The notes under the pieces were generated by a model that did not search any database, was not told the origin of the DNA, and saw only the letters and a program-made list of their open reading frames with translations. Positions 5,442 through 15,115 of a DNA stretch of 64,000 nt are shown here, piece by piece. Each line of letters opens with the position of its first letter. Position 1 is the stretch's first letter. Source of the DNA: Blastococcus saxobsidens (GTDB lineage: Bacteria > Actinomycetota > Actinomycetes > Mycobacteriales > Geodermatophilaceae); contig NZ_JAAGWG010000002.1 of NCBI RefSeq assembly GCF_010682065.1, positions 62,001-126,000 of the forward strand, in the 5' to 3' direction. The translations under genes were made by a program, and so were the position numbers.

Positions 5442-6169
5442 GCCAGCTCCTCGGTCACCCGCAGCGCCTCCGGCAGGGTGAACGCGCCCGCGTACAGCGC
5501 CTTGCCGACGATGGCGCCCTCGACGCCGATCGTGGTCAGCCCGGCCAGCGCCCGGATGTCGTCCAGGGAGCTGACGCCACCGGAGGCGATGACCGGCCGG
5601 GGCGTGGCGGCGCAGACCTCGCGCAGCAGCTCCAGGTTCGGGCCCTTGAGCGTGCCGTCCTTGGTGATGTCGGTGACGACGTAGCGGGCGCAGCCCTCGG
5701 CGTCGAGGCGGGCCAGGGTCTCGTAGAGCTCCCCGCCCTCCTGGGTCCAGCCGCGGGCGGCCAGCCGGGTGCCCCGCACGTCCAGGCCGACGGCGATCCG
5801 GTCGCCGTGCTCGGCGATCGCGCGGGCGCACCACTCCGGCGACTCCAGCGCGGCGGTGCCCAGGTTCACCCGGCGGCAGCCCGTCGCCAGGGCCGCGGCG
5901 AGGGACTCGTCGTCGCGGATGCCTCCGGAGAGCTCCACGTCGACGTCGAGCTCGCCGACGACGCGGGCCAGCAGCTCCCGGTTGCTGCCCCGGCCGAAGG
6001 CGGCGTCGAGGTCGACCAGATGCACCCACTCGGCACCGTCGCGCTGCCACTGCAACGCGGCCTCGAGGGGGTCGCCGTAGGAGGTCTCGCTCCCGGCCTC
6101 CCCCTGCACCAGGCGGACGGCCTGGCCGTCGGCGACGTCGACGGCGGGGAGCAGCTGCAGCTTCGGCAC
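5438..6169 (-). CDS. priA: PriA, bifunctional HisA/TrpF phosphoribosyl isomerase
   Basis: 243-residue (beta/alpha)8 isomerase of histidine biosynthesis. In actinobacteria the PriA form also performs the TrpF step of tryptophan synthesis. D11 ([10 protein letters not shown]) and D171 ([10 protein letters not shown]) match the catalytic pair. R19, R139 and W141 (AARGW) match the Arg and Trp residues that let mycobacterial PriA accept both substrates. Signature strings such as [11 protein letters not shown] and [20 protein letters not shown] are typical of PriA. The GTG at 6169 gives the standard family length. Whether the genome also has a separate trpF cannot be seen here. Confidence 0.96.
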
Positions 6170-7094: not shown

Positions 7095-7643
7095 ATGAAC
7101 GCTCCCGCCGCCAGCTTCGCCGCCACCGACCGACCGCTCACCGCGCTGCTCGACACCGTCCCCCCGGCCGGCTGGGCCGCCCCCTCCCCCTGCGAGGGGT
7201 GGACGGCCGCCGACGTCGTCGGGCACCTGCTCCAGACGCAACGGGACTTCCTCACCACGCACGGCGTGGACCTCGGCACGGCGCCGGACGTCGCCGCCGA
7301 CCCGGCCGCCGCCTGGCGCGCACACGCGCAGCGGGTGGCCGCCGCGCTGGCCGACGACGCGGTGCCGGCCCGGGAGTTCGACGGCTTCTTCGGTCCCACC
7401 ACGGTGGGCGCGGCCTTCGAGCAGTTCTACGTCTGGGACATGGTCGTGCACCGCTGGGACGTCGCCCGCGCCGTCGGTGCCGACCCCGGGCTCACCGACG
7501 CGGAACTGGACCGGATCGAAGCCGGTGCGGACAGCTTCGGGCCGGCCCTGCACATGGACGGCATCTGCCGTCCGGCCGTCGAGGTGCCCGCCGACGCCGA
7601 CCGGCAGACCCGCGCGCTGGCGAGGCTGGGCCGCGCCGCCTGA
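7095..7643 (+). CDS. TIGR03086-like DinB/maleylpyruvate isomerase-like protein
   Basis: 182 residues of the DinB/mycothiol-dependent enzyme superfamily. [18 protein letters not shown] carries the CEGW and first metal His, and [19 protein letters not shown] carries the second His-bearing helix. The C-terminus ([33 protein letters not shown]) is the ending typical of the TIGR03086 group. Function within the superfamily is not assigned. It is the likely first target of the divergent AraC regulator and precedes a nitroreductase by 28 bp, so the two may be co-transcribed. Confidence 0.85.
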
Positions 7644-8271: not shown

Positions 8272-8294
8272 GGCGGCCGTTCCGTGAGAGCCTG

Positions 8295-8327
8295 CTCATC
8301 CGGCTCTCACCGGCCGCTCACCCCGGG
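8295..8327 (+). promoter_or_regulatory. Operator-like array A: three 11-bp CTCAyC repeats
   Basis: CTCAyC cores at 8295, 8306 and 8317, exactly 11 bp apart (CTCATCCGG, CTCACCGG, CTCACCCC). The first two units match 21 of 22 bases with the array upstream of the two-component operon at 12716-12737. A 9-bp inverted repeat (GTGAGAGCC at 8284-8292, GGCTCTCAC at 8302-8310) overlaps it. Direct repeats at one-helical-turn spacing are the usual binding mode of OmpR-type regulators, one of which is encoded at 10094. Confidence 0.6.
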
Positions 8328-8343
8328 CCCGGACGCTGACGCG

Positions 8344-9567
8344 GTGGACACCGCCCGCTCCCTGCCCCACCGTCCGCCGGCGTGGCCGCCGTCGCTGCAG
8401 CTGCTGCTCGGCGAGTCCGCCGCCGAGCTGTGGGCCGCGGTCCTCGCTCCGCTGGCCGGCCGGCTGCGCAGCCTGACGGCGACCTCGGTGACCCTGCGCC
8501 CGGACTCGGCGGCCACGGTCCGCCACACCGCCGTCGTGGACTGGGCCGACGGACGCAGCACCCGGGAGTTCCTGGCCGCGACGACCGGCGCCGCGATCCC
8601 GGCCGGCGCGGCGGTGGTGGAGGGCTCGACCGCCGACGGACCGGTCGCCGTGGGGCTGTGGCGATGGCCGCTGGATCCCGCCCTCCCGGGGCTGGCCTGG
8701 GCGACGTCGGCCGCGGGGGTGTCCGGGCGGTTGACCTCCCTGGGCATCGACCCGGGCGCCGCCCGGCTGCGGCTGCGCGCCTACCGGCCGGGCCGGCGGG
8801 CGGTGGTGGAGGTCAGCTCGCCGGCCGGCCGGTGGTTCCTCAAGGTCGTGCGGCCGACGGCAGCGGCGGGCCTCGCGGCCCGGCACACCGCGATCGCGGC
8901 CGTCGTGCCCGCGCCCCCGGTGCTGGCCGCCACCGACGACGGCGTGCTCGTGCTGCCGGGGCTGCCGGGCACACCCATGCGGGTGGCGTTGAGCGGGGAC
9001 GCGCAGCAGCTGCCCGACCCGCTCGCCCTCGAGGCACTGCTGGACCGGTTGCCCGTGATCGGCGGCCCGGCGCGCCGGACCCGGCCGGGCGACCCGCTCC
9101 CTCCGATGCGGGCGCACAGCACCGTGCTCCGGATGGTGTGCCCGGACCTGGCACATCGGCTGGAGCGGCTCGACGCGGCCGTGGCGGCGTCGGCCGGCGA
9201 GCACCCGCTCGTCCCGGTGCACGGCGACTTCTACGAGTCGCAGCTGCTCGTGCGGGCGGGTGCCGTCACCGGCCTGCTGGACGTGGACACCGCCGGGCCG
9301 GGCGCACGGATCGACGACTGGGCGACCCTGGTGGCCCACCTCGCCCTGCTCGAGCGGCTCGTGGACGCGCCCGCGCCCGTCGCCGCCTACCGGCGCAGGG
9401 CGCTGGACCTCCTGGCCGGGCGCTGGCCGGCCGGACAGCTCGAGGCCCGGGTGGCCGGTGTGCTCGTCGGGCTCGCCACCGGCCCTTTCCGGGTCCAGCA
9501 GGCGGAGTGGGCGGTCGCGACGGAGGCCAGGGTGGCGCTCGCCGAGGAGTGGGCCGGGCTGCGATGA
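8344..9567 (+). CDS. Aminoglycoside phosphotransferase-like (APH/choline kinase fold) protein
   Basis: 407 residues from the GTG at 8344. The C-terminal half shows the kinase catalytic loop VHGDFYESQLLV, with Gln in the position usually held by the metal-binding Asn, followed by GLLDVDTAGPGARIDDWA as the DFG-equivalent. RWFLKVVR supplies the likely ATP-binding Lys. The substrate is unknown; the family includes sugar, choline and antibiotic kinases. An in-frame GTG at 8284 would add 20 residues, but that stretch is the 11-bp repeat array, so I treat it as regulatory. The next gene downstream (9679) has its own array. Confidence 0.8.
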   Translation: MDTARSLPHRPPAWPPSLQLLLGESAAELWAAVLAPLAGRLRSLTATSVTLRPDSAATVRHTAVVDWADGRSTREFLAATTGAAIPAGAAVVEGSTADGPVAVGLWRWPLDPALPGLAWATSAAGVSGRLTSLGIDPGAARLRLRAYRPGRRAVVEVSSPAGRWFLKVVRPTAAAGLAARHTAIAAVVPAPPVLAATDDGVLVLPGLPGTPMRVALSGDAQQLPDPLALEALLDRLPVIGGPARRTRPGDPLPPMRAHSTVLRMVCPDLAHRLERLDAAVAASAGEHPLVPVHGDFYESQLLVRAGAVTGLLDVDTAGPGARIDDWATLVAHLALLERLVDAPAPVAAYRRRALDLLAGRWPAGQLEARVAGVLVGLATGPFRVQQAEWAVATEARVALAEEWAGLR

Positions 9568-9572
9568 GGCGG

Positions 9573-9627
9573 CTCTCATGCGGATGAGAGGGGGCTCATC
9601 GCCTTCTCCCCGGGGCCTCACGGGCCG
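9573..9627 (+). promoter_or_regulatory. Operator-like array B upstream of the Asp/Pro-repeat protein
   Basis: A palindrome CTCTCAT-GCGG-ATGAGAG (9573-9590) is followed by three 11-bp units starting at 9595 (CTCATCG), 9606 (CTCCCCGG) and 9617 (CTCACGGG). Core and spacing match array A and the array at 12716. It ends 51 bases before the ATG at 9679, a normal distance for a promoter-proximal activator site. Confidence 0.55.
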
Positions 9628-9678
9628 TGGGGATGGTGGATCCCGACAGCGCAGGACCGACCACCCGAGGAGAAACCC

Positions 9679-10032
9679 ATGACCAGCACCCCGGCCACCT
9701 GGAAGATCGTCACCTTCGGTACCGCGCTCACCGGCCTCGGCATCGTCGGCGTCGGCGTGGCCACCGCCGACGACGGCCCCACGACCGCCCAGCCGGCGGG
9801 CATCTCCGTCGCCGTGGACGCCGACCGCGACGGCGGGTCCGACGCCTCCCCGGAGTCGGCCGACAGCCCGGCGGAGAGCGCGACCGACAGCCCCGACGTG
9901 CAGACGCCGGACGTCGACAGCCCGGACGTCCAGACCCCCGACGTCGACAGCCCCGACGTCCAGACCCCCGACGTCGACAGCCCCGACGTCCAGACCCCCG
10001 ACGTCGACAGCCCGGACCGCGACGACGACTGA
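9679..10032 (+). CDS. Secreted Asp/Pro-rich decapeptide-repeat protein
   Basis: 117 residues, not a recognised family. Residues ~8-30 form a signal peptide (hydrophobic run, likely cleavage after ATA). The rest is low-complexity: an acidic, Ser-rich linker, then four perfect copies of SPDVQTPDVD (residues 71-110) and a SPDRDDD end. The predicted mature protein is strongly acidic, so it could bind cations or cationic molecules in the envelope; this is inference. GAGGAG lies eight bases before the ATG. It has its own operator-like array and ends at a strong hairpin shared with the convergent response regulator gene. Its composition echoes the acidic tail of the protein at 12340. Confidence 0.85.
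   Translation: MTSTPATWKIVTFGTALTGLGIVGVGVATADDGPTTAQPAGISVAVDADRDGGSDASPESADSPAESATDSPDVQTPDVDSPDVQTPDVDSPDVQTPDVDSPDVQTPDVDSPDRDDD
9889..10008 (+). repeat. In-gene 30-bp tandem repeat, four copies
   Basis: Four head-to-tail 30-bp units encode SPDVQTPDVD. Units 2-4 are nearly identical in DNA; the first has several silent third-position changes. A high-identity array of this kind is liable to change copy number by slippage. Confidence 0.95.
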
Positions 10033-10040
10033 GGCGCGCG

Positions 10041-10088
10041 ACGGCCGGCGGCCCTGGTCCCCGCGCGGGGTCCGGGGCCGTCGGCCGT
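10041..10088. terminator. Bidirectional hairpin terminator
   Basis: A 22-bp stem (10041-10062 with 10067-10088) with one mismatch, two G-T pairs and a GCGC loop lies between the convergent genes ending at 10032 and 10094. There is no T-run, as is common for high-GC actinobacterial terminators. Confidence 0.8.
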
Positions 10089-10093
10089 TCCGG

Positions 10094-10756
10094 TCAGGCG
10101 GTGACGAGGCGGTAACCCATCCCGCGCACCGTCTCGATGCGGTCGGCTCCGAGCTTCTTGCGCAGGTAGCGCACGTAGACGTCGACGACGTTGGAGCCCG
10201 GGTCGAAGTCGTAGCCCCAGACGTGGCTGAGCAACTGCTCGCGCGCCAGCACCTGGCCCGGGTGCCGGAGGAAGGTCTCCGCGAGGGCGAACTCCCGGGC
10301 GGAGAGGTCCACGCTGCGGCCGCCGACGCTCGCCCGGCGGGTGCGGAGGTCCAGGGACAGGCCGCCGGCCGTCAGCACGGTCACCTCGCCGTCACGCGGC
10401 CCGGCCAAGCGCAGGCGCACCCGCGCCAGCAGCTCCTCGAACCGGAACGGCTTGGCCATGTAGTCGTCCGCGCCACCCTCCAGCCCGGCCACCGTGTCCT
10501 GCACGCTGTCACGGGCGGTCAGGACGATGACCGGCACCGGGCAGCGTTCCGCCCGCAGCCCGCGCAGGACCGCGAACCCGTCCAGGACCGGGAGCCCGAT
10601 GTCCAGCACCACCAGGTCGAAGTCGCCGCTGCGCGCCCGGTCCAGCGCGGACAGACCGTCACCCACGACGGCGGTGACGAAGCCGTTGGCCTTGAGGCCC
10701 TTCTCGATGAACGCCGCGATGCGCGGCTCGTCCTCGGCGATCAGGACCCGGCTCAC
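10094..10756 (-). CDS. OmpR/PhoB-family response regulator
   Basis: 220 residues. The receiver domain (1-~118) has acidic residues E8 D9 E10, phospho-acceptor D52 in LVVLDIGLP, T80 and K102 (KPF). The winged-helix DNA-binding domain (~125-220) has REFALAETFLRHPGQVLAREQLL, the WGYDFDPGSNVVDVYVRYLRKKLG recognition segment and ETVRGMGYRL. The GTG start overlaps the kinase stop (GTGA), making it the last gene of the operon 12687-10094. OmpR-type proteins bind tandem 10-11 bp repeats, matching the arrays at 8295, 9595 and 12716. Confidence 0.97.
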   Translation of the reverse strand: MSRVLIAEDEPRIAAFIEKGLKANGFVTAVVGDGLSALDRARSGDFDLVVLDIGLPVLDGFAVLRGLRAERCPVPVIVLTARDSVQDTVAGLEGGADDYMAKPFRFEELLARVRLRLAGPRDGEVTVLTAGGLSLDLRTRRASVGGRSVDLSAREFALAETFLRHPGQVLAREQLLSHVWGYDFDPGSNVVDVYVRYLRKKLGADRIETVRGMGYRLVTA

Positions 10757-12336
10757 CGGTCTCCTCCCTCGGTCGGTGCGGTGGCGGTCCCGGCCAGCAG
10801 GGACGGCGTCGACAGCGCGTCGTCGACGGTGTCGCCCGGGTCGGCTCGCAGGTCGTCCGGCACGGCGTCCGGCGGTGGCGCCGGCCGGGCGGGCAGCACC
10901 AGCGTGAAGGTCGCCCCCTCCCCCGGACGGCTGTGCAGCTCGACGTGCCCGCCGTGCCCCGCGGCGATGGCCTGGACGATGGACAGGCCCAGTCCGGCGC
11001 CGTCGCCGCGCCGGGCCCCGGAGCTGCCCCGGGCGAAACGCTCGAACACCCGCTCCTGGTCCCCGACCGGGATGCCCGTCCCGGTGTCGTCGACCCACAC
11101 GAGCAGGGAGTCCCCGCTGAGCCGGCTGCCGAGGACGATGCGGTCCCCGGGGCGGGTGTGCTGGACGGCGTTGTCGGCCAGCGCCACCACGGCCTGGGCC
11201 AGCCGCTGCGGATCGAGCAGCAGGTCCGCGCGGGCGACCGCCCCGAGCTGCCAGTCCCGGTCGCCCAGCCGCCGGACGTTGCCGAACACCTCGGCGGTCA
11301 GCGCGGCCACGTCGGCCGGCTGCAGGCGGACGAACTGCGGCTGCTCGGCGCGGGCGAGCAGCAGCAGCTCGGTGACCATGCGGTTCATCCGCTCCAGCTC
11401 GTCGTCCACGAGGGCGACGGTCTGCCGGACGTCGTCCGGATCGGCCGGATCGAGCACCTCGAGGTGGCCGCGCACGATCGTGATCGGGGTGCGCAGCTCG
11501 TGGCCGGCGTCGTCGAGGAAGCGGCGCTGGGCGGCGACCCCGCCCGCCACCCGGTCGAGCATCGCGTTGACCGCGACGGCCAGGTCGGTCAGTTCGTCGG
11601 CCGGGCGCCCCTCGACGGGGATCCGGCCGGACAGGTCGGTCTCGGTGATGCCCTGGGCGGTCGTCGCGACCGCCCGTACCGGCGCGAGGACCCGGCCGGC
11701 GACGACCCACGCGCCCGCGGCGGCGAGCAGGACGGTCACCGCGCCGACGCCCAGCATGAGCTGGGCCGTGTCGTCGGCGGCCTGCCGCTCCTGGTCGGCG
11801 AAGTAGGCGACGAGCGCGACGCCCGGGGTGGGGTCGCCCTCCAGGGTGACCGGCACCGCCAGGTAGCGGACCTCACCGGCACCGCTGTCGTAGCGGCCGG
11901 CCCGGGTGTCGGTCACCGACCCCACCAGCTCGGTGAACGCGGCGTCCTCGCTGAGCAGGACCGGCGCCTCGATGCGGCTCTGGAAGCGGTACTCGCCGTC
12001 GACGTAGCCGAGGAACTTCTCGTTGGGCCGGGCCAGGTTGTAGGTGATCACCGTCCGCAGCACGTCGTCGACCGAGGCGAACGGCTCGCCCGTGCCCGGG
12101 TCCACGTTGCCCTCGACGATCTGCGAGAACTCCTCCACCTCGGCCCGCAGCGCCAGGTCCATCCGCTCGTCGGTGGCCCGGATCAGCAGCCGCCAGGTGA
12201 CCAGGGTGACCAGCGCCAGGGCGAGGAGCACGAGCAGCAGGACCCAGCCGATGATCCGTGTCCGGGCAGCTCGCGGGACCAGGCGGCGCACGATGCGGTC
12301 GCGCCGGCTGGTCGTCGTGCCCATCTCGCTGCTCAC
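10753..12336 (-). CDS. Sensor histidine kinase
   Basis: 527 residues. TM1 is ~29-51, an extracytoplasmic sensor domain ~52-190 and TM2 ~193-215. A HAMP domain is followed by the HisKA box RRFLDDAGHELRTPITIVRG with phospho-acceptor H279. The ATPase domain has N-box ALADNAVQHT, G1 DDTGTGIP, F-box FERFARG and G2 GDGAGLGLSIVQAI, so all catalytic boxes are intact. A ~55-residue Pro/Asp tail follows the ATPase domain. GTG at 12336 is three bases after the stop of the acidic membrane protein gene; ATG at 12324 is an alternative start. The signal is unknown; the sensor domain is not one I recognise. Confidence 0.96.
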   Translation of the reverse strand: MSSEMGTTTSRRDRIVRRLVPRAARTRIIGWVLLLVLLALALVTLVTWRLLIRATDERMDLALRAEVEEFSQIVEGNVDPGTGEPFASVDDVLRTVITYNLARPNEKFLGYVDGEYRFQSRIEAPVLLSEDAAFTELVGSVTDTRAGRYDSGAGEVRYLAVPVTLEGDPTPGVALVAYFADQERQAADDTAQLMLGVGAVTVLLAAAGAWVVAGRVLAPVRAVATTAQGITETDLSGRIPVEGRPADELTDLAVAVNAMLDRVAGGVAAQRRFLDDAGHELRTPITIVRGHLEVLDPADPDDVRQTVALVDDELERMNRMVTELLLLARAEQPQFVRLQPADVAALTAEVFGNVRRLGDRDWQLGAVARADLLLDPQRLAQAVVALADNAVQHTRPGDRIVLGSRLSGDSLLVWVDDTGTGIPVGDQERVFERFARGSSGARRGDGAGLGLSIVQAIAAGHGGHVELHSRPGEGATFTLVLPARPAPPPDAVPDDLRADPGDTVDDALSTPSLLAGTATAPTEGGDR

Positions 12337-12339
12337 GGT

Positions 12340-12687
12340 TCAGTCGTCACCGTCGTCGTCAACGTCCGAGTCGTCGTCGCTGTCCCCGGGGTCGTCGTCG
12401 GCGTCCTCGTCGTCGTCCTCGTCGTCGGTGTCGTCGTCGGGCAGCGGGGGCGGCGGGACGACGTCCGTGGGCGCCACCTCCGGCGGCGGGACGACGGACG
12501 ACGGGGGCATCGGACCCGGATCCGGGGACGGACGCGGGGCGGGTTCGTCTCGGGCGGGGACGTCGATGGGCGCAGGCACCGGCCGGTCACCAGCGCCGGC
12601 GGGGCGCAGCAGGACCCACGCCGTCCCGCAGACGAGGAGGACGGCGACCAGCGCGGCGAGCACGGCGGGCGCGGGGCGCGGACGCAT
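12340..12687 (-). CDS. Membrane-anchored/secreted Pro-rich, Asp-rich protein co-transcribed with the two-component system
   Basis: 115 residues, no recognised family. An N-terminal hydrophobic helix (~8-27) acts as signal or anchor, then a Pro-rich stalk (~34-82), then a tail of about 33 residues made almost wholly of Asp with some Glu, Gly and Ser. It is the first gene of the operon with the histidine kinase (3 bp gap) and response regulator. An extracytoplasmic polyanionic tail next to a sensor kinase suggests binding of divalent cations or cationic peptides, or modulation of the sensor; this is inference. Array C lies immediately upstream. Confidence 0.85.
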   Translation of the reverse strand: MRPRPAPAVLAALVAVLLVCGTAWVLLRPAGAGDRPVPAPIDVPARDEPAPRPSPDPGPMPPSSVVPPPEVAPTDVVPPPPLPDDDTDDEDDDEDADDDPGDSDDDSDVDDDGDD

Positions 12688-12715
12688 GCGGACCAGCCTC
12701 CGGCACGCGCGTGGC

Positions 12716-12755
12716 CGGCCGGTGAGAGGCGGATGAGAGGCCTCTCATCCGCCTC
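12716..12755 (-). promoter_or_regulatory. Operator-like array C with 30-bp perfect palindrome
   Basis: On the minus strand two 11-bp units, CTCATCCGCCT and CTCACCGGCCG, occupy 12737-12716. They match 21 of 22 bases with array A at 8295-8316. The array is embedded in a perfect 15+15 bp inverted repeat with no spacer (12726-12740 with 12741-12755). It lies 29 bases upstream of the first gene of the kinase/regulator operon, implying autoregulation. The palindrome may also terminate the upstream peptidase gene. Confidence 0.65.
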
Positions 12756-12772: not shown

Positions 12773-15115
12773 TCAGCCGAGGTCGGTGGTCTCCGTGACC
12801 AGCACCAGGTCCGCGCCGTGCACGCCGGCCACGTCGACCTCCTCGGGCCGCGGCTGGAAGCCCGGCAGCCCGGCGAGCCCGTCGACGGCGTCGGTCACCC
12901 GCAGCCGCACCGGGCCCTCGCCCTCCACGGTGAGGCCGACCTGCAGCCCATCGGCCGGCGGTGCGTGGAACGTGATCCGCAGCGAGTCCCCGCCCACGGC
13001 GGCGTCGGGCACCGGGCGCCCGCCCACGCGGGCCCGCACCACGGTGCCGCCGTCGACGGTGACGGTCAGGTCCACGAGGCGCACGTCGTCGCGCCGGGGC
13101 AGCACCCGCAGGCTGAGCTCCCGGCGCCCGCCGAGCTCCTCGTCGGACTGCACGGTGACCTCCGGGGCCGCCAGCGCCGCCGCCTCCGCCGGGCCCGTCT
13201 GCACGTCCCTCCCGGTCAGGTACGGGTAGTCGGCGCCCAGGCTGCCGGGGCCGTCGACGAAGCGGCCGGTCCACTCCCCCGGCGAGGACTCGGTGCTCAC
13301 CCAGCGGGCCTCGCCGCGGTCGGAGTCGAGCAGGTAGGCCAGCCGCGAGGGCACGGGGTGGGCGGCGTCGAACCGGTCGACACCCAGTCCGGCCACGGCG
13401 CAGGCGGCGGCCACTCCGACCGCCGTCGCGGGCACCGCCATCGCACCCAGCCGCGACCGGCCCGCCTCGGGGTCGGGGAACAGCAGCTCGAGGGCCGGCA
13501 GCAGGGCCAGGGCGGCGAGCACGACGACGACCGACGGCGCCGCCGCCTGCGACAGGCCGAGGGCCGGGAGGAACAGCGCCGCCGTCGGCGCCAGGACCAG
13601 TACGGCCGCCGCCCCCGTGACCGCCGCGCCGAGGACGTGCACGGCCCGCGACCGCGCCAGGACGCTCACCGTTCCGGTCAGCGCCCCCACCAGCGCCGGC
13701 CACGCCGCCAGGTAGGACCCGCCCGGCGCCACCGCGGCCAGGACAGCGGCGATCACGGCCAGCCAGCCCAGCGCGCCGGCCGCCAGCGGCGCCGGCCCCA
13801 CCCGGCGGCGGAGCAGCGCGTACCAGACCAGCACCACGGCGAGCACCGTCGCGACGGCGGCCACCCGGAACCAGCCCGGGCGCCAGGGGTCGAGCATGCC
13901 GGCGTAGCCGGGGCGCACCGCGACCAGCGCCGCCCACAGCCCCTGGGCGGCCAGCGGCGCCAGCGCGAGCGGGACCACGGCCAGCAGCGCGGCCGCACCG
14001 GTCCGGCGCAGCGAGCTCACCCCGCGGGACCGCAGCGCCAGGACCAGCCCGGCGACGGCGACCAGCGCGGCCCCCGCCAGCGGCCACACGAACGTGCCGG
14101 GATAGCGCACCAGGGACCCGGGCAGCGGGAAGTAGGTGGCGTCCCCGGCGGCCGGCTCGGCGAGAGCGGCCAGGTCCCGTCCGCCCAGCTCGCGGGCCAG
14201 GGCGAGGGCGTTGTCGCCGAGTGCCTGCAGCGTGCGCCGGTCCAGCCGCTCCGGGGTGTCCTGTGGCGAGTGGTACCCGGCGGCGCCGTCGATGAAGGCG
14301 GTGTTCATGCCGGTGAAGTCGCCGTCGTCGAGGAGCACGCTGAAGTCGGTGTCGTTGGGCAGCGCCCGGTAGACCTCGACGGCGAAGCTGCTGGCCACCG
14401 GGTGCGGTGCGGCGTCGGCGAAGGCGGCGGCGAGGTCGGCGTTCCCCAGCGACGTCTCGAACATGATCGGCGGCCCGCTGGTGCCCCGGGCCTCGAAGTT
14501 CAGCACCACTCCCCCGCCGGCCAGCGGGTGCGACGCGGCGAACGCCTCGGCGCCGCACAGGCACGCCTCCTCGGCGTCGGTGAGGACGACGACGACGTCG
14601 TTGCGCAGCGGCGGCCCCGCCGTCAGCGCGCGGACCGACTCCAGGAGCGCGGCCACCCCCGCGGCGTCGTCGGCGGCGCCCGGCCCGGCCTCGGCGGAGT
14701 CGTGGTGGGCCATCAGGTACAGCCGGCCGGTGGGGTCGGTGCCGGGCAGCACGCCGACGACGTTGCGCACCCGGGCCATGCGGACCTCACCGGCGCCGCC
14801 CTCGCGCACGCCGACGGCGTTCTGCACGCGGGTGTCGAGGCCCAGGCCGGTGAGCGTGCCGACCAGGTCCTCGACGACCCGGTCGTTCTCCGGGCTGCCG
14901 GCCACGTGCACGTCCGCGGCGGTCCGCTCGACGTGGGCGAAGGCCCGGGTGGCGCTGAACTCCCCGGCCGGGGCGTCGGCCGGCCGGGGGTCCGGGGGCT
15001 GCAGGCCGACCACGGTCCAGGCGGCCAGGCCCAGCAGCAGGACCACGACGACGAGGCCGAGGAGCCGACCGGGCCGGTCGGCGCGGCCGGTCCGGGGGGA
15101 ACGCTCGGCGGGCAC
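12773..15115 (-). CDS. Membrane-anchored M28-family metallopeptidase with C-terminal polytopic domain
   Basis: 780 residues. An N-terminal TM (~18-37) precedes an M28 di-zinc aminopeptidase domain (~50-315): MAHHDS (H137, D139), the bridging-Asp segment GAADDAAG, catalytic Glu in DAEEACLCGAEAF and a His in GYHSPQDTPERL. About seven or eight TMs follow (~330-580), then a soluble C-terminal domain (~590-780). This resembles the vacuolar/ER M28 peptidases (Pff1/ERMP1 type). GTG at 15115 has AGGAGG upstream. A TAGGGT -10-like element (15157-15152) and two copies of CCTGGGAAC (plus strand, 15124 and 15145) lie before it. The substrate is unknown; an extracellular active site is likely. Confidence 0.9.
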   Translation of the reverse strand: MPAERSPRTGRADRPGRLLGLVVVVLLLGLAAWTVVGLQPPDPRPADAPAGEFSATRAFAHVERTAADVHVAGSPENDRVVEDLVGTLTGLGLDTRVQNAVGVREGGAGEVRMARVRNVVGVLPGTDPTGRLYLMAHHDSAEAGPGAADDAAGVAALLESVRALTAGPPLRNDVVVVLTDAEEACLCGAEAFAASHPLAGGGVVLNFEARGTSGPPIMFETSLGNADLAAAFADAAPHPVASSFAVEVYRALPNDTDFSVLLDDGDFTGMNTAFIDGAAGYHSPQDTPERLDRRTLQALGDNALALARELGGRDLAALAEPAAGDATYFPLPGSLVRYPGTFVWPLAGAALVAVAGLVLALRSRGVSSLRRTGAAALLAVVPLALAPLAAQGLWAALVAVRPGYAGMLDPWRPGWFRVAAVATVLAVVLVWYALLRRRVGPAPLAAGALGWLAVIAAVLAAVAPGGSYLAAWPALVGALTGTVSVLARSRAVHVLGAAVTGAAAVLVLAPTAALFLPALGLSQAAAPSVVVVLAALALLPALELLFPDPEAGRSRLGAMAVPATAVGVAAACAVAGLGVDRFDAAHPVPSRLAYLLDSDRGEARWVSTESSPGEWTGRFVDGPGSLGADYPYLTGRDVQTGPAEAAALAAPEVTVQSDEELGGRRELSLRVLPRRDDVRLVDLTVTVDGGTVVRARVGGRPVPDAAVGGDSLRITFHAPPADGLQVGLTVEGEGPVRLRVTDAVDGLAGLPGFQPRPEEVDVAGVHGADLVLVTETTDLG

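Follow-up and report, generated by a model that had tools for sequence, protein, structure and literature searches.

A shared tandem-repeat operator at three promoters around an OmpR-type kinase/regulator pair in Blastococcus saxobsidens

The DNA considered here, the window, is a stretch of 64,000 nucleotides from the soil actinobacterium Blastococcus saxobsidens (Geodermatophilaceae; NCBI RefSeq assembly GCF_010682065.1, contig NZ_JAAGWG010000002.1, positions 62,001 to 126,000), and between its positions 8285 and 12747 a single operator element recurs at three promoters of a locus that encodes a two-component system. Taking the statement as a whole, we think it likely that the neighbouring OmpR-type regulator binds this element and activates all three promoters, and that the module has a charge- or cation-related role outside the membrane. 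That grading is weighted to the regulatory part of the statement, of which the sequence comparisons leave us quite confident; the functional part, i.e., charge or cation control by two polyanions with negative feedback, is a tentative guess from protein composition.

The element consists of an inverted TGAGAG, then two or three direct repeats at 11-bp spacing, and then, at a fixed distance, a -10-like hexamer, with the consensus TGAGAG-N4-CTCATC-N5-CTC(A/C)C-N6-nTCACC. It serves a compact module of an acidic membrane protein, a histidine kinase, an OmpR-type regulator, an Asp-rich exported protein and an APH-fold kinase (membrane and export placement being predicted). From left to right, the genes for the APH-fold kinase and the Asp-rich (Asp/Pro-repeat) protein lie on the plus strand and are followed, convergently, by the minus-strand genes for the regulator, the sensor kinase and the acidic protein, an operon that in its own reading direction runs from the small acidic protein through the sensor kinase to the response regulator. 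The host genome is a 4.09-Mb assembly of 77 contigs, 91% complete, and the closest named relatives of the kinase are from Blastococcus and Geodermatophilus. The parts are listed below, positions of the form +48 being counted along the site.

8285..8322, plus strand: Operator 1, with TGAGAG at 8285-8290, CTCATC at 8295, CTCACC at 8306 and CTCACC at 8317; 54.2 bits by the site model, of which it is itself a training site
8332..8337, plus strand: predicted -10-like hexamer GACGCT of the phosphotransferase (APH-fold kinase) promoter, A/T at +48/+52
8344..9567, plus strand: APH-fold kinase gene, called a phosphotransferase in an earlier note; GTG start 8344 at the predicted transcription start; from orthologue alignment, AlphaFold (predicted local distance difference test, pLDDT, 93.5) and Foldseek
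9585..9622, plus strand: Operator 2, with TGAGAG at 9585, CTCATC at 9595, CTCCCC at 9606 and CTCACG at 9617; 53.6 bits (training site)
9632..9637, plus strand: predicted -10-like hexamer GATGGT of the Asp-rich gene promoter, A/T at +48/+52
9679..10032, plus strand: Asp/Pro-repeat protein; signal-peptide-like N-terminus, predicted exported; compared with relatives
10094..10756, minus strand: OmpR-family response regulator; Response_reg and Trans_reg_C
10753..12336, minus strand: sensor histidine kinase; HAMP, HisKA and HATPase_c
12340..12687, minus strand: acidic protein; hydrophobic N-terminal segment, Pro-rich linker and poly-Asp tail; ATG 12687 at the predicted transcription start
12695..12700, minus strand: predicted -10-like hexamer GAGGCT of the kinase operon promoter, A/T at +48/+52
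12710..12747, minus strand: Operator 3, with TGAGAG from 12747, CTCATC at 12737, CTCACC at 12726 and a degenerate GCCACG at 12715-12710; 57.2 bits (training site)

The element and its promoters

The earlier note on this DNA had drawn attention to CTCAyC repeats at 11-bp spacing before all three transcription units. Before the phosphotransferase gene the trio at 8295, 8306 and 8317 is present as described (CTCATC, CTCACC and CTCACC); before the Asp/Pro-repeat gene the copy at 9595 is exact, but those at 9606 and 9617 read CTCCCC and CTCACG, and on the minus strand the copies at 12737 and 12726 stand but the third is the degenerate GCCACG. A C at the fourth position of the second repeat, as at 9606, is frequent in relatives (35 of 43 downstream sites). 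The inverted repeats that the note had seen at all three places resolve into the fixed TGAGAG half-site, which at each promoter (8285, 9585 and, on the minus strand, 12747) begins exactly 10 bp upstream of the first direct repeat. The identity of the first and third operators at 21 of 22 bases is likewise real, but it is local to the window, since the spacers differ among relatives.

On their own the direct repeats are only moderately unusual, because the six window matches to CTCAYC-N5-CTCAYC at one mismatch or fewer (1.5 expected) were equalled in 1 of 100 shuffles. The exact 17-mer of that form occurs five times in the whole genome, three times at this locus and twice elsewhere, at C30:22812 (seen as sequence only) and at C14:201523, which is treated as chance because it has no inverted half-site and no module gene within 13 kb. 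The fuller pattern, TGAGAG-N4-CTCAYC-N5-CTC, gave five window matches at up to two mismatches against 0.27 expected, the largest count in any of 100 shuffles being one, so that none reached five. Three of the five are exact and the other two overlap or abut these on the opposite strand; genome-wide (4.09 Mb) the exact fuller pattern has three occurrences, all of them at this locus.

Promoter geometry was read from 46 sites, i.e., the three of the window and 43 from 24 Geodermatophilaceae loci, which also served to train the site model. Selection of these sites relied on the element's left part, as far as +23; the third repeat and the -10 were both read from columns beyond it, which had no part in the choice. 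There the third repeat has C at +34 in 44 sites and A at +35 in 41, and a -10-like xAnnnT follows, with A at +48 in 42 and T at +52 in 43. The same two columns are kept in other families, in 34 of 40 sites each at the kinase operon and in 43 of 43 each at downstream sites. No conserved -35 element was found in the site columns, in Geodermatophilaceae or in the other families.

The start codon of the kinase operon is held at a set place as well. All 40 kinase-operon sites outside Geodermatophilaceae, and 20 of the 21 inside, have an ATG or GTG at +59 to +61, and as a control the other single offsets from +50 to +71 hold a start codon in none to two of the 40, with the exceptions of +51 (13) and +58 (7). 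A separate count that placed the start at a fixed offset in 58 of 60 sites is biased towards that offset, since the start nearest +60 was picked where several were possible, a bias from which the +59 to +61 count is free. As the start codon falls about 7 nt after the -10, where transcription is expected to begin, the mRNAs of the kinase operon and of the APH-fold kinase gene are predicted to be leaderless. For the latter gene a start at 8284 is probably wrong and has been moved to the conserved GTG at 8344, because this has the same offset from the element as the start of the kinase operon. The Asp-rich gene has a leader, its start being +94 for the window's copy and +88 to +97 for the relatives read.

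Distribution of the element and the kinase/regulator pair

Across 23 genomes of the genus, TGAGAG-N4-CTCAYC-N5-CTC at one mismatch or fewer gave 33 matches. Twenty were exact, and all of them stand at this locus (one of them, L056, next to the acidic gene where a contig ends), in 8 of 9 genomes that bear the kinase and in none of 14 that lack it. Of the 13 with one mismatch, two belong to the locus, including one from G017, the ninth genome with the kinase; the 11 elsewhere look like background, being spread over kinase-bearing (6) and kinase-less (5) genomes. The kinase-less G012 has two identical one-mismatch matches 3 kb apart (C2:348332 and 351353; L060 and L070), perhaps a duplicated unit.

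In a sample of 298 genomes of the order, the strict operon-type pattern was found in 24 and the kinase (E<1e-160, next best 1e-114) in 29, and the pattern was present in 21 of the 29 genomes with the kinase against 3 of the 269 without. The APH-fold kinase gene (E<1e-140) was found in 25 of the 29 and in 1 of the 269, from which we conclude that the parts of the module travel together; both cut-offs were fixed after wide gaps had become visible in the lists. One exception, G063, holds a decayed copy of the locus (L220, G063:C1:3929000-3941000), in which two facing elements 265 bp apart (5852-6117), a fragment of the APH-fold kinase gene and the flanking nitroreductase and M28 peptidase genes persist and no kinase or regulator was matched. 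Another, G273 (L221), has two elements 242 bp apart, and tblastn found no module gene there.

A scan of public genomes for the kinase yielded 78 loci, of which 76 (L108-L183) were used and two (L184 and L185), matching the kinase core only, were dropped. Twenty-four are in Geodermatophilaceae and 52 outside; 71 were assessable, the other five having too little upstream sequence. When the model trained on Geodermatophilaceae sites was applied to the 52 other-family loci, the maximum reached away from the two expected places was 19.7 bits, and 34 of the 49 assessable loci had a higher score before the kinase operon, up to 57.5 bits. Taking the 71 assessable loci together, 52 have both the operator and the acidic gene, 8 have the acidic gene with a sub-threshold score, 10 have neither, and one (L144) has the operator without a recognised acidic gene, a shorter acidic tail there having fallen below the cut yet being visible on reading. 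The element lies upstream of the same genes in loci of Geodermatophilaceae, Pseudonocardia, Rhodococcus, Mycolicibacterium and Actinomycetospora, and the module recurs in Geodermatophilaceae, Pseudonocardiaceae (Pseudonocardia) and Mycobacteriaceae (Mycolicibacterium), and also in Rhodococcus. The earlier note had asked whether the element is rare away from this locus, follows the kinase/regulator orthologues and is conserved near them, and on all three counts the genome-wide, genus, order and cross-family results go its way.

The neighbourhood was also surveyed. An M28 peptidase gene (window 12773-15115) adjoins the acidic gene, but with 6 of 24 Geodermatophilaceae loci having it against 0 of 52 others, it is taken to be a neighbour outside the module; in the 52 other-family loci, the conserved neighbours found beyond the module were common only within lineages. 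At the mycobacterial locus L171 there are two downstream elements (34.0 and 23.2 bits, at 11297-11395 and 9908) and none at the kinase operon, and the first frame after the 9908 element encodes a larger lipoprotein-like protein, a possible further target.

Two genomes amount to natural experiments. In G279 the kinase operon lies about 1.3 Mb from the APH-fold and Asp-rich genes on one contig, and the element is kept at all three promoters, at 33.7 bits for the kinase operon and at 41.3 and 25.3 bits for the APH-fold and Asp-rich genes. In G023 the APH-fold gene has as its neighbour the nitroreductase gene that is also seen in the window; the kinase could not be found, the best regulator match is a 42% paralogue, and the element is absent, nothing within 13 kb of the APH-fold gene scoring above -16 bits. 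Of a sister clade, four kinase loci were read (L224, L225, L226 and L240; kinase identity 42-47%), and all have a small acidic-tailed gene before the kinase. Three of them have altered sites before the acidic-tailed gene or the kinase (e.g., TGAAG, TGAGG) that score 14.3, -1.4 and 6.4 bits, and L225 has none; in one sister-clade genome the APH-fold and Asp-rich genes lie elsewhere, again with altered sites (L239). The recognition helix of the regulator reads VRYLR in 23 of 24 aligned main-clade regulators (LRYLR in L153) and is different in three sister regulators. Shifted half-site letters together with helix differences would be the pattern expected of co-evolution between a regulator and its sites. 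At L046 (G008:C1:4754000-4769000), a regulator of about 51% identity with the helix VKYLR is adjoined by CTCAYC-type repeats at 7201 (minus) and 7335 (plus), and on that account the half-site may be common to a wider group of regulators.

Output proteins and relation to known systems

The acidic proteins are built alike: after a basic N-terminus come a hydrophobic segment, a Pro-rich linker and an Asp-rich tail. In a set of 48, gathered by an automated frame search that misses genes opening further upstream (the fuller count is 60 of 71 loci), the net charge of the last 45 residues ranges from -12 to -27, and an N-terminal 19-residue stretch with a mean hydropathy of at least 1.8 is present in 45 of the proteins. 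By the positive-inside rule for membrane topology the tail is predicted to lie outside, and a membrane anchor is predicted for the protein. The N-terminus of the Asp-rich protein resembles a signal peptide, and the Actinomycetospora counterparts of this protein have a lipobox-like LSGC (L131 and L183); its export is predicted from a reading of the N-terminus rather than from a signal-peptide predictor. Of the two secreted polyanionic proteins proposed in the earlier note, the Asp-rich one thus keeps its place, but the acidic one would be tethered rather than secreted. Downstream Asp-rich genes were found at no fewer than 18 of 70 loci, a lower bound set by the single regular expression and the longest-frame rule that were used. 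The N-terminus of this protein (WKIVTFGTALTGLG, window 9679-9778) is unusually conserved across families, more so than the remainder, which suggests a role for it beyond directing export.

The AlphaFold model of the third output (pLDDT 93.5) is an APH-type kinase with a beta-rich N-terminal part; HGD, DxD and a Q that follows the D of HGD by five residues are invariant among the 31 orthologues aligned. Fold and HGD put the window protein in the APH fold superfamily; the Pfam APH model matches 15 of the 31 orthologues, the window's own protein not among them. By E-value its first Foldseek match is mycobacterial maltokinase (4u94, 1.2e-9), with which it has the common APH fold, but the TM-score is 0.42/0.39 and the root-mean-square deviation 14.2, no maltokinase chain is among its 11 sequence matches, and the invariant Q is a difference from both maltokinase and APH(3'). 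An APH(3') resistance enzyme was rejected on its scores of 18.1 against 400 (APH(3')-I) and 15.7 against 205 bits. The models of this protein and of the sensor kinase were built on shallow alignments (31 and 40 sequences). In the latter, the sensor part has helices and strands between two long helices (predicted TM-score 0.48), and we read it as PAS/Cache-like; the first 50 Foldseek matches are almost all to kinase cores, with little on the sensor domain. The sensor region has invariant or near-invariant basic residues, including R103, K107 and R121, and conserved acidic residues too.

The pair itself is of the OmpR/PhoB family: the regulator has a receiver and a winged-helix Trans_reg_C domain, the kinase HisKA and HATPase_c, all above Pfam cut-offs, and the target promoters carry direct repeats in tandem, spaced by about one helical turn. 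Among homologues, the best 120 of 3647 bear generic names, with one WalK. That OmpR-family regulators bind such tandem sites, as the earlier note had it, agrees with the excerpts to which our citations here and below refer, where direct repeats of 11 bp are what some of these regulators usually bind, the M. tuberculosis PhoP box being TCACAGC-n4-TCACAGC and the S. coelicolor PHO box consisting of 11-bp repeats with GTTCACC (PMC9019756). The present system is like the PhoP/PhoB type, so far as the latter is described there, in its receiver and Trans_reg_C regulator and its 11-bp-spaced direct repeats at promoters, but unlike it in the half-site CTCAYC, in the fixed inverted TGAGAG upstream, and in serving three promoters of a single locus rather than a large regulon.

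Named systems were tried and set aside. The regulator scores 171.8 bits against the PhoB equivalog cut-off of 296.2. The heavy-metal CzcRS/SilRS/CopRS models (TIGR01387 and TIGR01386) are the best-scoring NCBIfam models for both proteins, and yet the regulator reaches 204 of 279.2 bits and the kinase 201.4 of 292.55, and the module has no metal-efflux gene. MtrAB falls short too (177.5 against 300 bits for MtrA, 162.6 against 450 for MtrB). CutRS of Streptomyces is also an actinobacterial kinase/regulator pair acting on extracytoplasmic functions, its targets in the excerpt being HtrA-type proteases and a cell-wall amidase, but its motif is TAWATAAA (PMC12802291), in place of the conserved TGAGAG/CTCAYC found here. 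From their excerpts, CrsRK was dropped as having a NarL-type regulator (PMC12623338) and PdtaS as unrelated (PMC11537054). MSMEG_0244/0246, called closest to PrrAB, has as neighbours a heme-binding protein, a transmembrane protein and a peptidase (PMC7516205), a set that differs from the window module, and it is set apart on that published description. In the open-access literature, mostly titles and the beginnings of abstracts, with subscription journals largely outside the scope, no description of this system was recognised, in keeping with the earlier note, which could match it to no described pathway.

Regulation, rival readings and possible role

We infer, with good support from the comparisons above, that the element comprises the sites of the regulator at 10094. 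A signal from outside the membrane would pass from the kinase to the regulator, and through the element to the three promoters. Phosphorylated regulator subunits would lie head to tail on the 11-bp direct repeats, covering the -35 region, and would bring RNA polymerase to a promoter that has a -10 and lacks a conserved -35; the inverted TGAGAG half-site would seat a further subunit, adding cooperativity. The targets would be the regulator's own operon (acidic membrane protein, kinase and regulator), making it autoregulated, the predicted exported Asp-rich protein, and the APH-fold kinase as a cytoplasmic arm. With less confidence, we suggest that the kinase senses a charge or cation disturbance outside the membrane and that the two polyanionic proteins would bind cations or cationic molecules there, damping the signal.

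Several observations weigh against this reading. The genomes counted are related, and hence not independent, and the strict pattern misses 8 of the 29 kinase genomes of the order, although one of these (G080) fails by a single base and its site scores 61 bits. G328, which has no kinase, carries a 36.6-bit element (L219:7150 minus, C6), and within 14 kb tblastn detected no module gene. The Pseudonocardia loci L166-L168 have the pair, and the element, the acidic gene and the phosphotransferase gene are absent from the locus stretch; their targets may be unlinked, as in G279. Four of the 10 loci that lack both the upstream operator and the acidic gene still have a downstream site above 19.7 bits (L159, L169, L171 and L179), so that autoregulation appears not to be universal, and the autoregulated system of the earlier note would hold for the window, where the element precedes the kinase operon, but apparently not for some related loci. 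The APH-fold gene was found near the pair by tblastn at 20 of 24 Geodermatophilaceae loci but at 15 of 52 others, and the evidence for the guess at function is the composition of the proteins.

Chance or local duplication as the source of the repeats, for which the 21 of 22 bases common to the first and third copies might speak, is scarcely credible: shuffles fall short of the window, relatives keep the half-sites and the -10 while the spacers vary, and the genome holds no further exact copy. It is also improbable that the element belongs to another regulator of the same family. The genome does have more regulators of the OmpR type (8 matches at E<=1e-30 in G000), and the G008 regulator of about 51% identity has similar CTCATC repeats nearby, but the presence and absence of the element follow the pair through the genus and order scans, the half-site letters shift in the sister clade, and G023 retained a target gene and lost the element.

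Less unlikely, though we still judge it a minority possibility, is that the regulator binds the element and represses, or does both according to its phosphorylation state, with the inverted half-site serving autorepression. CutR, also OmpR-type, is described as both repressing and activating according to position (PMC12802291). The element extends to about 10 bp before the -10, near enough to block polymerase. Where an activator takes over from the -35, however, repeats at a fixed distance from a -10 that has no -35 are what one would expect, and since the repeats here cover the place of a -35, keep a fixed distance to the -10 and have no conserved -35 beside them, activation is preferred.

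A different question is what the acidic proteins do, and here a possibility that we rate somewhat higher than repression, if still well short of even, makes them accessory signalling proteins, the membrane-anchored poly-Asp tail docking on the sensor domain of the kinase and tuning it. The acidic gene is first in the kinase operon at 60 or 61 of 71 assessable loci, and R103, K107 and R121 of the sensor region are invariant or nearly so; yet at 10 of the 71 loci the kinase is present and no acidic gene was recognised, the conserved residues of the sensor include acidic ones too, and the exported Asp-rich protein of the same composition is a separate unit. More speculative, and in our view rather doubtful, is an undescribed class of two-component system that builds an extracytoplasmic polyaspartate layer, in which tethered and exported poly-Asp would form a tunable protein polyanion that stands in for teichoic-acid-like charge and buffers surface cations, with its own kinase closing the loop by sensing and setting it.

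To return to the favoured reading, of activation by the neighbouring regulator, what we have is apparently an undescribed regulon within a known kind of two-component system, with an unusual operator and output. An anonymous kinase/regulator pair thereby becomes a defined regulon with a readable operator, which makes it possible to construct a reporter and a binding assay straight away. With its inverted half-site, tandem repeats and predicted leaderless outputs, the operator also lends itself to asking how OmpR-type regulators recognise half-sites, given the shifted letters of a sister clade. If it is true that the Asp-rich proteins set surface charge or cation binding, these bacteria would have a protein route to a role that is usually credited to anionic polymers.

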